Below, piece by piece: positions 4,170 through 63,042 of a stretch of DNA of 64,000 bases. The DNA comes from a virus. The notes under the pieces were generated by a model. The model was not told where the DNA came from, searched no databases, and saw nothing but the letters and a program-made list of their open reading frames with translations. Where the stretch lies: positions 1 through 64,000 of the IMG/VR virus record IMGVR_UViG_3300047548_000785, one strand, 5' to 3'. Both the position numbers and the translations under genes were made by a program. Positions within the stretch are counted from its first letter, which is position 1; the number at the start of each line of letters is the position of its first letter.

Positions 4170-4910
4170 TCACTCAACAACAAGCTTCTTGATCTCATTA
4201 AGAATTAAAGCCGGAACACCAGCTTCTTCAGATACTCTATAACGTTCCTTCAAAGGAAGATTCATTCCATAACGCATAGGTGCTGCAGCATGTTCTGTAG
4301 CCATAGCCAACAATTTATCATTAGCCTCATATCGCTTAAACACAATTTTCTTATCAGTCATAAACTCAACAAACATTAAAGGATCATTTTCCTTGACACT
4401 AAAATGTGTCTCCCCTTCTGGTACGTGATATTCCAAAGCCACATGCCTATACCATCTTCCAATATCAAATTCTCCAGTAGCTAAAAGTGCACCACGCATA
4501 GGAGAAAAAGCAGGGTAGTAGGGAGCAGTAAACTTAGCAACAACAGGTTCTGATGCAAACATAATCCAATTCAATGAATACGTCATAGCATAATAGTTTT
4601 TAAGGTTTGAATGTCTTGTCTTCTGACATGCAATAGCAGCAGGAACCTGGTAACGATATGTTTCGGTTTCTTTAGCTTTTTCAATCTCTTCTAAATCAAA
4701 ATCAAATTCTTCTGTAATGGCACTCTTAAACACGAATACATTATTCAACCTATCCTTCATTGCAGGACATCTAGTTTGATTAGCATATGGAGTCTTTTCT
4801 CCATGCACAAAGCTTAACAAGCTTTCTGGTTTGCGATAAACCATATTGTATGGTTCTCGTTCATGATCATAAGATCCAGGTGCCCAATAGACGGTAATCT
4901 CTTTGCTCAT
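4170..4910 (-). CDS. Conserved-looking phage hypothetical protein, 246 aa
   Basis: Begins MSKEITVYWAPGSYDHERE. A soluble protein with many aromatic residues and no membrane span or known catalytic motif visible. The opening pattern (short strand, W-x-P, then an acidic and aromatic run, later CPAMKD) resembles proteins of unknown function I associate with marine and freshwater phages, but I cannot name the family with certainty. A GAGGAGAGAGA ribosome-binding stretch lies just before the ATG. Largest gene of the leftward arm and last of the unit that starts at 5225. Confidence 0.85.
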   Translation of the reverse strand: MSKEITVYWAPGSYDHEREPYNMVYRKPESLLSFVHGEKTPYANQTRCPAMKDRLNNVFVFKSAITEEFDFDLEEIEKAKETETYRYQVPAAIACQKTRHSNLKNYYAMTYSLNWIMFASEPVVAKFTAPYYPAFSPMRGALLATGEFDIGRWYRHVALEYHVPEGETHFSVKENDPLMFVEFMTDKKIVFKRYEANDKLLAMATEHAAAPMRYGMNLPLKERYRVSEEAGVPALILNEIKKLVVE

Positions 4911-4937
4911 TCTCTCTCCTCTTTTTTGCGGTATAAA

Positions 4938-5271: not shown

Positions 5272-5393
5272 GGTTTGGCAAAAGTTTCGCGGTATCAAAC
5301 CATCTCTGATGGTGTTTGCGAAGCAAACAAATAACCCCTCATGATCGATCATAGTATTTATATAATCATCCTCGACCTATGTCGTATGAGGGG
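5272..5393. other. Hairpin-dense divergent intergenic element
   Basis: Between the leftward gene at 5225 and the rightward gene at 5456 lie several inverted repeats: ACCATC/GATGGT (5299-5313), GTTTGC/GCAAAC (5314-5328), and CCCCTCAT/ATGAGGGG (5335-5342 with 5386-5393), which encloses the palindrome ATGATCGATCAT and a CGAC/GTCG hairpin (5373-5384). Could be a structured RNA, a protein-binding array or a recombination or packaging site. No gene seen. Confidence 0.55.
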
Positions 5394-5442
5394 CTATATA
5401 ACCATTATACACCTTTTGAACGGTTTGTCAATATACGAGGTT

Positions 5443-6007: not shown

Positions 6008-6246
6008 GTATCTTTACATATAACAGCCTATATGTAAAAATAATCGCAAAATCTTTACATATAATGTGTGCGTTCATACACATTTTATCTGTTTAGGGGG
6101 GCTAAACTACTGCTTTAGGCCAAAAAGTGTGCGTTCGTGCACATTTAAAATCAGTACGATAGTTCCGAATACCGATAAAAGTTGGTGTAAAACAACAATA
6201 ATTGGTCTAAATCAGCACGATCGTTCTCATTTAGCTTAAATAAGGT
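6008..6246. repeat. Non-coding region with paired direct and inverted repeats
   Basis: A perfect 10-bp inverted repeat, TTTACATATA/TATATGTAAA (6013-6038), follows the M23 gene. Three direct repeats occur in pairs: TCTTTACATATAA (6011 and 6052), GTGTGCGTTC (6066 and 6127, each inside a small hairpin ending CACATTT), and AATCAGYACGAT (6149 and 6210). No gene seen. The arrangement resembles iterons or operator arrays. Confidence 0.6.
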
Positions 6247-6456: not shown

Positions 6457-6780
6457 ATGACTTGGCAAGAATGGGTTCCTCTCACCGTAGGTATCATAGC
6501 GATTATTACAGCACTCGGAGGTTTTCTAAGATATGTTATTAAAAACTTTTTACGTCAAGAACTTCATATAATCAAGCATGAACTTCAGCCTAATAGTGGT
6601 AAGTCTATTAAGGATCAAGTTACCAGGCTAGAAGAAACACAAAAAATAATGAAAATGGAACAAGACGATCATATTAAAACTCAACGTGAAGAAGAAAATA
6701 AAATCGAACATCGAATCGATAAAATTGAAAAGAAAATTGATCGTTTATACGAGATTGTTATCCAAAAGCTCGGTAACTAA
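6457..6780 (+). CDS. DUF2746-like membrane and coiled-coil protein
   Basis: A 107-residue protein with one membrane span (about residues 6-27) and a long charged coiled coil from about 60 to the end. The joint ELQPNSGKSIKDQVTRLE strongly recalls the ELKPNGGSSLRD signature of the DUF2746 proteins found near lysis genes of actinobacteriophages. Such proteins are thought to assist lysis or virion-envelope interaction, though the role is not settled. It sits between an M23 peptidase and the endolysin-holin pair, in keeping with a lysis role. Confidence 0.75.
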   Translation: MTWQEWVPLTVGIIAIITALGGFLRYVIKNFLRQELHIIKHELQPNSGKSIKDQVTRLEETQKIMKMEQDDHIKTQREEENKIEHRIDKIEKKIDRLYEIVIQKLGN

Positions 6781-6946
6781 TATATATCTATATACCTTAT
6801 ATCTTAATATCTTAGTTTGCTAGGTATTCTTCTTTCTTATATTATTAATATTATACACATAAGTTCATCTTCTTGATACAAAAAATAGATATTTTTATGT
6901 AACAATTGTGTAACATTTTGATTACAAACATGTAACGTTATAATTA

Positions 6947-6955
6947 TGTTATAAT
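6947..6955 (+). promoter_or_regulatory. Extended -10 promoter upstream of the hairpin RNA
   Basis: TGTTATAAT. The predicted transcription start, about 7 nt downstream, is the first base of the terminator stem at 6963. A second TATAAT at 6939-6944 overlaps upstream. The flanks (6781-6938) are very AT-rich with no gene seen. Confidence 0.55.
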
Positions 6956-6962
6956 TTATTTG

Positions 6963-7017
6963 ACTACTACCTAGGTTTTCTCTCTCTCATACCCACTTCC
7001 TAGGTAGTAGTTTTTTT
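6963..7017 (+). terminator. Perfect 13-bp terminator hairpin, possible short RNA
   Basis: ACTACTACCTAGG (6963-6975) pairs perfectly with CCTAGGTAGTAGT (6999-7011), followed by a run of seven T. The 23-nt loop is pyrimidine-rich (TTTTCTCTCTCTCAT then ACCCACTT). It ends rightward transcription from 6457 and may also be the body of a roughly 55-nt RNA started at 6963. Confidence 0.85.
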
Positions 7018-7034
7018 ATTTATAATTTTTTACC

Positions 7035-7043
7035 TGATATAAT
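7035..7043 (+). promoter_or_regulatory. Extended -10 promoter of the lysis module
   Basis: TGATATAAT, about 48 nt before the ATG at 7091, after the strong terminator. Same TGnTATAAT pattern as later rightward promoters. Confidence 0.55.
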
Positions 7044-7090
7044 AATATAAGAAGAGAAGTCTTCGTTAACTGATAGGAAGTGGAATAAAA

Positions 7091-7183
7091 ATGGCTACTA
7101 AGTCAAATAAAAGAGACAACATGAATACGCCTGATGATGAATGGCTACCTGTTGGATATGATGCAGAAGAGGTCAACAAATGA
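7091..7183 (+). CDS. Small hypothetical protein, 30 aa
   Basis: Begins MATKSNKRDNMNTPDDEWLP and ends with AEEVNK. An AGGAAG ribosome-binding site lies upstream, and its TGA overlaps the endolysin ATG as ATGA, so it probably serves translational coupling to the endolysin. The N-terminus is basic and the C-terminus acidic. No family recognised. Confidence 0.65.
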   Translation: MATKSNKRDNMNTPDDEWLPVGYDAEEVNK

Positions 7184-56074: not shown

Positions 56075-56088
56075 CAGAGAGAGAAACA

Positions 56089-56295
56089 ATGGAAAACGAA
56101 AACACTAAAATTACAGTTACACTTGGTTATACATTGAACCTAGGTAACTTTGAGTCACTCCGTGTTGACCTGGGAGTATCAGATTCCCGACGCGATGGTG
56201 AGACTGTCGATCAGGCCTTTGAACGTGTCTACGATTTTGTAGAGCAAAAGCTTATCGAAAAGACTAAAGAAGCCAAAGAAGAAATCGCTGAATAA
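56089..56295 (+). CDS. Small conserved-looking phage protein, 68 aa
   Basis: Start at ATG 56089 (MENENTKITVTLGYTLNLGN), preceded by GAGAGAGAAA; the frame also opens at 56056 inside the HTH gene without a ribosome-binding site. Pattern of a beta hairpin followed by a long charged helix (DQAFERVYDFVEQKLIEKTK). Comparable proteins occur near replication genes of actinobacteriophages as I recall, with no defined role. Overlaps the next ATG by one base. Confidence 0.75.
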   Translation: MENENTKITVTLGYTLNLGNFESLRVDLGVSDSRRDGETVDQAFERVYDFVEQKLIEKTKEAKEEIAE

Positions 56296-59739: not shown

Positions 59740-59769
59740 TCAACACCTACTATAAGAGAGAGATTATAC

Positions 59770-62700
59770 ATGAGCTACGTTGGACTACACGTTCACACTC
59801 ACTATTCGTTGTTTGACGGCATCGCAACACCACAAGAATATGTGGACCGAGCACAAGAGCTTGGTATGCCAGCTATTGCTATTACAGATCATGGTTCGCT
59901 ATCTGGACACCGTGAAATGTACCGTACTGCTAAGGAAGCAGGAATTAAGCCTATCCTCGGTGTAGAGGGGTATATGGCACAAGACCGTTTCGATCATCGT
60001 GATGCATCGGAGCGTGAGCACGTTCTTGATATGGTTTATAACCACATTGTTATTCTCGCTAAGAACGAGAAGGGTTTAGAAAACTTAAATAAGCTTAACG
60101 AGATTGCTTGGACAGAAGGTTTCTTTAAGAAGCCACGTATTGACTTTGAGGTACTTGAACAGTACAGCGAAGGTCTTATTGTTACCTCGGCTTGCCCCAG
60201 TGGAATTGTAGCAAAGTCCATTGAGACTGGCGAGCTTGCTGTAGCTAAAGAAAAGATTGAGTGGTTCCACCGTGTATTTGGTGACGACTATTACATTGAG
60301 GTAATGCCTCACAATGCACCAGAGATTAACAAGACTCTGTTGGAGCTGGCAGACGAGTACGGTATTAAGGCCGTTGTAACTCCAGACTGCCACCACTCAC
60401 ACACTGGTCAGAAAGAGATTCAGGAGCTTAAACTTATTCTGAACACCTACTCAAACAAGATTGAAAAGGGTGCCACCTTTGAGAAGTCTCGTGAGTATGA
60501 CAATCTCATGGATCGACTTGACTATTTGTATGGTGCAGACCGCCAGATGTCGTTTAATAAGTTTGAGATTCATTTGCTTTCCTATGAAGAGATGAAGGCT
60601 GCCATGGAAAAGCAGGGTATTGATCGTGAAGATATCTACCAGCACTCATTAGAGATTGCTAACAAGGTAGAAGACTATAACATTCAGGACCACCTAGACC
60701 TGCTTCCTGCACAGTACCTCAAGCCAGACGAGGAGCTACGTTCCATGGCTATTGAAGGTTTGGTAGCACGTGGTTTGGATGGTAAAGAAGAATATATTGC
60801 ACGCCTAGAAGAAGAGCTTCAGGTAATTAAAGATAAGAAATTTGCCCCATACTTCATGGTTGTTCGCAACATGATTAACTGGGCTAAGAAAGAAGGTATT
60901 CGTGTCGGTCCTGGGCGTGGTTCAGCTGCTGGTTCTCTCTTGTGTTATGCTCTTGGTATTACTGATATCGATCCAATTGTTCATGGCCTTTTGTTCTTCC
61001 GTTTTATTAATCCAGAACGAAATGACTTCCCAGATATTGATACTGATATTCAAGACTCTCGTCGTGATGAAGTAAAAGAATATCTAGTTAAACAATATCG
61101 TCACGTTGCATCTATTGCTACATTTCTACAATTTAAGGATAAGGGTGTAGTTCGAGATATTGCACGTGTACTCCACATTCCACTCACTGATGTCAACAAG
61201 GTGCTCAAGACCATTGATACGTGGGACGAATACTGTACCTCTAAAACTACCCTATGGTTTCGTGAAAAGTACCCAGAGGTAGAACAGTATGGAGAGCAGC
61301 TACGTGGTCGCATTCGTGGTACTGGTATCCACGCTGCTGGTGTGGTTACTGCAAAGGAGCCTATCTTTAAGTACGCTCCAATGGAGACTCGTACATCACC
61401 AGGTACAAAGGAACGCATCCCTGTTGTTGCTGTAGACATGGGTGAGGCTGAGCGTATTGGATTGATTAAGATCGATGCCCTGGGCCTCAAGACCTTGTCT
61501 GTGCTTGATGACACTATTAATATTATTAAAGAACGTCACGGTGTAGAAATCAAACCACTTGAAATTGATATGGAAGACCGTCAGGTTTACGAAATGCTTT
61601 CCGCAGGTCACACCAAGGGTGTGTTCCAGTGCGAAGCTACACCATATACAAACCTACTGGTAAAGATGGGGGTAAAGAATCTTGATGAACTTGCAGCATC
61701 CAATGCTCTCGTTCGTCCAGGTGCTATGAATACCATTGGTAAAGACTATATTGCACGTAAGCACGGTAAGCAGAATGTTGACTATCGTCACATGAAGATG
61801 AAAGAGTTTACTGGCGATACATATGGCTGTATTCTCTACCAGGAGCAAGTTATGCAGGCCTGCGTGGAGCTTGGTGGCATGACAATGACTACAGCTGACA
61901 AGGTTCGTAAAATCATTGGTAAGAAAAAGGATGCTAAAGAGTTTAAGCAGTTTGAAGACATGTTCGTCAAAGGTGCATCTCAATATCTTGGAGAAGAAGG
62001 TGCTAAGGATCTCTGGCATGACTTTGAGGCTCACGCAGGGTATTCCTTTAACAAGTCACACGCTGTAGCATACTCTACTCTTTCTTATTGGACTGCATGG
62101 CTCAAGTATCACTACCCACTTGAGTTCATGTTTGCTCTTCTTAAAAATGAGAAGGACAAGGACACACGTACAGAGTACTTGATTGAGGCAAAGCGTATGG
62201 GTATTCCAATTAAGCTGCCACACGTAAATGACTCAGACATCGACTTTAAGATTGAGGGCAAGGGTATTCGCTTTGGTCTTGCTGGTATCAAGTATGTATC
62301 AGATATTATTGCATCTCGATACATTGCAGCACGCCCATTTAATTCTTACAAAGAGCTTGAAGAGTTCACCTTTGGTAAAGGTAACGGTGTAAATAGTCGT
62401 GCACTCAATTCTATGAGACTTATCGGTGCTGCTACCTTCCCAGATAACCCTAGGAACGACGCTGAGGTGCGAGAACATCTTTATGAGTACCTTAACCTAC
62501 CCGAGTTTAACATTTCAGTTCCTCCACACTTCCATGCTTTTATTAATGAGGCAGAGGAGTACGAGGAAAAGGGTGCCTTCATTCTGATGGGCATGGTAAA
62601 GAATATCAAGCGAGGCAAGGGTTGGTCACGTGTAGAGATCCTAGACAAGACTGGTGTTGTTGGTATTTTTGATGACGAGCAGACCACGATTGAGGCAGGT

Positions 62701-63042
62701 AGGACTTACATCATTCTTGCTAGCGATAACAGGATTACTTCTGCTATCCCAGTGGATGAAGCTAAAGGTTCTGATAATGGTGTAATTAAGTTCTTAAACT
62801 ATCGTCAGCTTCCCTATACAGACGAAGAACTGTATGTCATCGCCTTTAAGCCAAGGGTAACCAAGGCAGGTAAGAAGATGGCCTACATGGTACTGGCAGA
62901 CACAGCACGTGAGCTACACTCTGTAACAGTATTTCCAACGCAATTCCCAAAGGCTTACATGAAAGTCAAAGAGGGTAATGCATACAAATTTGATTTTGGT
63001 AAAACAAAAGACGGAACAATAATAATGAATGAGGTATATTAA
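59770..63042 (+). CDS. dnaE: DNA polymerase III alpha subunit
   Basis: 1090 residues. N-terminal PHP domain with the HVHTHYSLFDG and AITDHGSLSG metal-site motifs and CHHSHTGQKE, then the C-family polymerase core: GPGRGSAAGSLLCYALGITDIDP and the catalytic PDIDTDI (near 421-427). A helix-hairpin-helix-like region and an OB domain near 930-985 (FILMGMVKNIKRGKGWSR) complete it. Chain synthesis at the phage fork. No separate 3'-5' exonuclease gene in this window; the PHP residues look intact. An AGAGAGAGA ribosome-binding site precedes it. A cellular-type replicase in a phage is less common than A- or B-family enzymes. Confidence 0.93.
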   Translation: MSYVGLHVHTHYSLFDGIATPQEYVDRAQELGMPAIAITDHGSLSGHREMYRTAKEAGIKPILGVEGYMAQDRFDHRDASEREHVLDMVYNHIVILAKNEKGLENLNKLNEIAWTEGFFKKPRIDFEVLEQYSEGLIVTSACPSGIVAKSIETGELAVAKEKIEWFHRVFGDDYYIEVMPHNAPEINKTLLELADEYGIKAVVTPDCHHSHTGQKEIQELKLILNTYSNKIEKGATFEKSREYDNLMDRLDYLYGADRQMSFNKFEIHLLSYEEMKAAMEKQGIDREDIYQHSLEIANKVEDYNIQDHLDLLPAQYLKPDEELRSMAIEGLVARGLDGKEEYIARLEEELQVIKDKKFAPYFMVVRNMINWAKKEGIRVGPGRGSAAGSLLCYALGITDIDPIVHGLLFFRFINPERNDFPDIDTDIQDSRRDEVKEYLVKQYRHVASIATFLQFKDKGVVRDIARVLHIPLTDVNKVLKTIDTWDEYCTSKTTLWFREKYPEVEQYGEQLRGRIRGTGIHAAGVVTAKEPIFKYAPMETRTSPGTKERIPVVAVDMGEAERIGLIKIDALGLKTLSVLDDTINIIKERHGVEIKPLEIDMEDRQVYEMLSAGHTKGVFQCEATPYTNLLVKMGVKNLDELAASNALVRPGAMNTIGKDYIARKHGKQNVDYRHMKMKEFTGDTYGCILYQEQVMQACVELGGMTMTTADKVRKIIGKKKDAKEFKQFEDMFVKGASQYLGEEGAKDLWHDFEAHAGYSFNKSHAVAYSTLSYWTAWLKYHYPLEFMFALLKNEKDKDTRTEYLIEAKRMGIPIKLPHVNDSDIDFKIEGKGIRFGLAGIKYVSDIIASRYIAARPFNSYKELEEFTFGKGNGVNSRALNSMRLIGAATFPDNPRNDAEVREHLYEYLNLPEFNISVPPHFHAFINEAEEYEEKGAFILMGMVKNIKRGKGWSRVEILDKTGVVGIFDDEQTTIEAGRTYIILASDNRITSAIPVDEAKGSDNGVIKFLNYRQLPYTDEELYVIAFKPRVTKAGKKMAYMVLADTARELHSVTVFPTQFPKAYMKVKEGNAYKFDFGKTKDGTIIMNEVY

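Follow-up and report, generated by a model that had tools for sequence, protein, structure and literature searches.

Targets have been supported for only a few phage small RNAs. Those covered by a review of the field come mostly from well-studied bacteria, and actinobacteria are not mentioned there (PMC12197685). Lambda OOP and P22 sar are short RNAs encoded by phages that pair with phage mRNAs, and sar interferes with translation initiation. Lambda PreS and VP882 VpdS are trans-acting phage small RNAs tied to replication control; both are Hfq-dependent, and the target of PreS is the host gene dnaN (PMC12197685). On the host side, the mycobacterial small RNA 6C, or B11, is summarised in PMC10470900 (citing Mai et al. 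2019) as an RNA whose C-rich loops target mRNAs at G-rich 5' regions, independently of an RNA chaperone.

We analysed a 64,000-nt stretch of DNA (the window) that forms part of an uncultured virus record of 67.7 kb. The capsid and portal proteins encoded here share 44–47% identity with their counterparts in Streptomyces phages of the Stanwilliamsviridae, and the host appears to be a low-G+C actinobacterium, probably one of the freshwater actinobacteria. At 6963–7017 (+) the window carries a single terminator hairpin that we consider likely to be a trans-acting, one-hairpin phage small RNA with its own promoter, whose loop would pair with the start of gene 56089 and lower expression of the replication block. 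As a C-rich-loop actinobacterial small RNA it may act in a mode similar to that of 6C/B11 as PMC10470900 summarises it, and it would presumably not need an RNA chaperone. 6C/B11 is a host RNA that has two C-rich loops and acts on many targets, whereas the window RNA is phage-encoded and consists of one hairpin that is also the terminator; its loop sequence differs, and one phage target is clearly conserved. No homology to 6C/B11 was found, and the family has no Rfam match in the window. OOP and sar are encoded antisense to their targets, whereas the window RNA is not encoded opposite its proposed target, which lies ~49 kb away and would be contacted over 7–11 nt via the loop. PreS and VpdS differ in that the target identified here belongs to the replication block of the phage itself and a single hairpin makes up the entire RNA. 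The anatomy is minimal: a promoter, one hairpin, a terminator within the same hairpin and a seed in the loop.

The sequence-only reading had placed here a −10 box at 6947–6955, a start at about 6963, a 13-bp perfect stem, a T run, an RNA of about 55 nt and a 23-nt loop, and every one of these was located where it had been claimed. The extended −10 box P1 (TGTTATAAT, 6947–6955, +), which recurs at the same spacing in relatives, predicts a start at 6962/6963. The two stem arms (6963–6975 and 6999–7011) form 13 perfect pairs, six of them G-C, around the loop at 6976–6998, and the terminator T run occupies 7011–7017. The loop is made up of a pyrimidine tract and CAUACCCAC, and its core TCTCTCATACCCAC (6983–6996) is near-invariant among relatives. 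The predicted folding energy of −19.3 kcal/mol (z = −7.3) was equalled by none of 200 shuffles, and the hairpin tops all large-loop hairpin-plus-T-run candidates in the window. By themselves, neither the P1 motif nor the CU-repeat motif is more frequent in this A+T-rich window than chance allows; both rise above chance because they are conserved in relatives.

A second extended −10 box, P2 (TGATATAAT, 7035–7043, +), marks the start of the lysis/structural operon. Because the hairpin has a −10 box at a fixed distance, a T-rich end and a second −10 box after it, it looks like an independent short transcription unit placed before the structural operon. It thus carries, as sequence signals, the promoter and terminator of its own that a base-pairing trans-acting small RNA should have, and we infer that it is transcribed. 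The distance from P2 to the ATG is 6 or 9 nt in 79 of the 90 relatives' elements among the matches listed, a spacing that suggests leaderless translation of the operon's first gene in relatives.

Contigs of relatives were located via the major capsid protein, and the region near the homolog of 6457–6780, the gene directly upstream of the hairpin, was inspected. A hairpin with a different stem and a nearly identical loop was present beside this homolog in G001, G011 and G018, and at the corresponding position in G034; the selection of these four was independent of the loop sequence. A 17-nt loop scan of viral contigs returned 36 loci, 32 with the hairpin, and a looser loop pattern returned at least 119 stretches, with about 90 distinct sequence contexts among the matches listed. 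When 51 distinct elements were aligned, 98.8% of the pair cells were kept with 177 double changes, and none of 500 shuffles was as good; slid controls were 27–48% paired. Compensation was seen at 17 of 18 pairs, including all 12 inner pairs. The loop invariance in this alignment owes partly to the search pattern used; in elements from other routes (G001, G047, G113, G109, G103 and G042) the CU tract varies, as do the first bases of CAUACCC, and ACCCAC rarely does. Across relatives, where loop length is 14–26 nt, the stem is almost wholly replaced through compensating changes and the loop is nearly constant, the opposite of the conserved stem with an unrelated loop that had been named as the outcome speaking against a small RNA. 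All 31 true elements in a set retrieved by loop sequence alone, and not by the −10 box, have a TGN-TA...T box 24–29 nt before the loop core. The proposal of a discrete small RNA gene thus gains the support of a conserved and covarying structure.

The covariance model built from these elements (R1) matches 6962–7012 with 58.5 bits and an E value of 8.5e-16, the window being among its 51 training sequences, and a model now exists for locating the RNA elsewhere. One element per contig, in the same place as in the window, was found in 41 of 45 whole-searched phage contigs, most of them picked for carrying the element. Weak second matches of 16.9 bits (G054:90150–90188 and G052:34234–34272) contain TCTCTCATACC without the family stem and are read as chance. 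The model search gave no element in the four actinophage isolates Yaboi, Faust, Coruscant and Cece, and the six pattern matches from a bacterial genome scan all lacked the hairpin. No variant element was found in model-negative contigs (G035, G046, G049 and others), fragments that probably stop short of the expected position. Relatives sought by endolysin or holin were distant high-G+C phages or none at all, and a stem-sequence match, L089, was rejected as an unrelated palindrome. No Rfam family reaches its gathering score anywhere in the window, and the single hit at E ≤ 5 within 6850–7150 is a chance match to another family. The window RNA therefore appears to lie outside the Rfam families, distinct as a single terminator hairpin with a loop seed.

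The main target gene (56089–56292, +) encodes a 68-aa protein of phrog_5189 (unknown function) and heads the replication block, directly upstream of a 102-aa gene and a DnaB-like helicase gene, which are followed by those for primase, SSB and a DnaE-like polymerase. The predicted fold of the phrog_5189 protein is a two-strand hairpin plus a long helix, without a PDB match in a fold search. Loop segment 6977–6987 is complementary to the 11-nt site AGAGAGAGAAA in the ribosome-binding region of this gene (56076–56086, +). This complementarity and the two of 9 nt that had been reported with it, at 59755–59763 and at the leftward start at 4910, proved exact. No other candidate start in the window has 9 nt or more of loop complement; with scrambled loops the number of such starts averages 0.8 and reaches at most 3 in 30 trials.

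A target screen compared every gene start in 14 phage genomes with the loop. Scored by energy, the phrog_5189 group, to which the gene singled out by the sequence-only reading belongs, ranked top among ortholog groups but was not separable from scrambled loops, at least 9 of 40 scrambles being better, and contiguous-complement tests were adopted in place of this screen. By longest contiguous complement to the own loop, the phrog_5189 group was first of 77 ortholog groups, with a mean of 7.42 that includes three misplaced starts; 25 scrambled scans gave 7.0 or less. With corrected starts, the own-loop match at the phrog_5189 start in 12 genomes has a mean of 8.5 nt (0 of 2000 scrambles), against genome means of 4.3–5.1 for other genes. 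RNAcofold, a method that cannot represent loop-target pairing with the stem intact, kept the hairpin closed with little gain (ddG −1.4). Whole-genome counts of 8–10-mers complementary to the core showed no clear excess after the element's own copy was discounted. Teutsch gp74, a Streptomyces-phage homolog of gene 56089, carries GGAGAGGAGGAAG at its start and lacks GGGTATG there; three phages of Teutsch's family were searched, and none yielded an element. Unlike the adjacent 56089 gene, the SSB-like gene (59050 in the window) has an ordinary AGGAGAA start in all relatives (L097, L108 and others).

Covariation between loop and ribosome-binding site was among the checks that the sequence-only reading had put forward. 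All 25 pairs show 7–11 nt of complementarity between the phrog_5189 start and the loop of the same phage. Among these 25 phages, which are related so that the pairs are not independent, own loops gave 8.44 nt and reassigned loops 7.50 (0 of 5000), and scrambled loops likewise 0 of 5000. Loops with UUUCUCUCUC pair with GAGAGAGAAA before the start codon (the window, G052, G054, G068, G071 and G042), and GAGAGAGAAA is still matched in G042, G068 and G071, whose loops have lost CAUACCC. For loops with CAUACCC the counterpart is GGGUAUG, which overlaps the start codon or lies just ahead of it and is kept in G043, G044 and G069 despite its shifted position relative to the start. Most relatives pair in this second way and not through the CU repeat, and the idea that the loop is a generic anti-Shine-Dalgarno copy had to be given up. 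In G047 the loop sequence UUGUUCCU matches the target AGGAACAA.

A prediction was recorded before R1 was run on contigs picked by the target protein alone, and this search gave four new pairs. Three of them fit, with changes in the direction that pairing requires: base-level compensation is seen in G109 (UUCAUACCC matching GGGUAUGAA) and in G103 (UUUCAUACC matching GGUAUGAAA), and in G113 a change of CAU to UAU in the loop is answered by GGGUAUA. G101 does not fit, having five Watson-Crick pairs, or seven counting a G-U, and it is the exception to a target complementarity that is otherwise conserved and covarying, as for a base-pairing trans-acting small RNA. These comparisons demonstrate, at the level of sequence, a conserved RNA structure with promoter and terminator signals and a covarying loop-target complementarity. 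The pairing with the ribosome-binding region of gene 56089 that had been proposed for the window is borne out by conservation and covariation in relatives and may be regarded as well supported. For a large group of uncultured phages, sequence alone thus reveals an RNA and a target that are both conserved and that covary.

In the mechanism that we propose, P1 would give rise to an RNA of ~55 nt that is one terminator hairpin, the stem serving as scaffold and terminator and the loop as the active part. The loop's pairing partner would be the translation start of gene 56089 (~68 aa), the first in the DnaB helicase-primase-SSB-polymerase block. Since the paired stretch includes the Shine-Dalgarno region or the start codon, ribosome binding should be blocked, and expression of the replication block would go down, presumably late in infection. 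This offers a testable idea of how these phages may lower replication gene expression. An RNA that pairs as proposed and instead activates or stabilises the target mRNA is improbable, since the predicted pairing falls on the Shine-Dalgarno region or start codon itself. Pairing at these positions normally blocks initiation, and the effect on the target is accordingly expected to be repression.

A simpler explanation would be a terminator acting only in cis, which insulates the lysis/structural operon, has a loop without a partner and follows a −10 box that arose by chance. The hairpin does have the form of an intrinsic terminator, a G+C-containing stem followed by a T run (relatives' tails are T-rich too), and it is placed between two transcription units. 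However, the loop of an intrinsic terminator is about 3–8 nt and unconserved, and a terminator does not require the 23-nt, near-constant loop seen here while the stem is replaced; the promoter is maintained at fixed spacing, and the loop-target covariation would be left unexplained. We regard this explanation as quite unlikely. Less likely still is a cis leader or attenuator in which 6993–7002 (CCACTTCCTA, loop plus 3' arm) pairs with the ribosome-binding site at 7074–7083 (TAGGAAGTGG): the 10-nt complement is perfect in the window, but the site could not fit in most relatives, whose downstream gene begins 6 or 9 nt past its own −10 box.

Binding of the loop to a protein or a host RNA, with the match at the phrog_5189 start secondary or coincidental, draws on the conservation of ACCCAC and the CU tract past the needs of one known site. 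It is an unlikely account, because loop variants track target variants down to single bases (G047, G103, G109, G113 and G042); rRNA was tried as a loop partner, and E. coli rrnB has no convincing complement. Under the preferred reading of a small RNA that pairs with gene 56089, near-invariant ACCCAC is left unaccounted for, as the 56089 site mostly uses CAUACCC only, and because ACCCAC is constant beyond the known pairing a further partner is suggested. We tentatively entertain a wider picture: a widespread family of one-hairpin phage RNAs that switches the replication module, with two interchangeable loop seeds (the CU tract and CAUACCC) that let target sites move between them in evolution; ACCCAC would be kept constant by additional targets, perhaps host ones.

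Two further sites in the window match the loop over 9 nt. A probable second target site, AGAGAGAGA (59755–59763, +), precedes a DNA polymerase III alpha-like gene (59770–63042). The polymerase start has GAGAGAGA in the window, G052 and G042 and lacks it in G068 and in the CAUACCC class, so that the site recurs in three of the four checked lineages of the window's loop class and in none of the other class; the proposed pairing here probably holds in the window's class and does not extend to the other. The site GAGAGAGAA (4910–4918, −) at the start of the leftward gene 4170–4910 is a possible third, and comparison lends little support to it as a target of the small RNA. In the GAGCCAGT group, the leftward gene adjoining the element carries GAGAGAG, with 7.75 nt of complement (0 of 5000 scrambles); as a second conserved target it was rejected, its covariation not being significant (466 of 5000). 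The window's 27106 gene and its orthologs, upstream of the portal gene, have a TGGTATACT box and a GTGGTTATG-type start conserved in most relatives, and this start shows a partial loop match with one mismatch.

Two neighbouring features may be recorded. Between the M23 peptidase gene and the next gene, at 6009–6063, there are three TATATGTAAAgATA-like repeats of ~13 nt in alternating orientation, a possible operator. At 5331–5397 (−) a leftward-facing hairpin, in which a 12-bp stem encloses a 43-nt loop and is followed by a T-rich tail, adjoins a perfect (12/12) sigma-70-like promoter at 5431–5404 (−).
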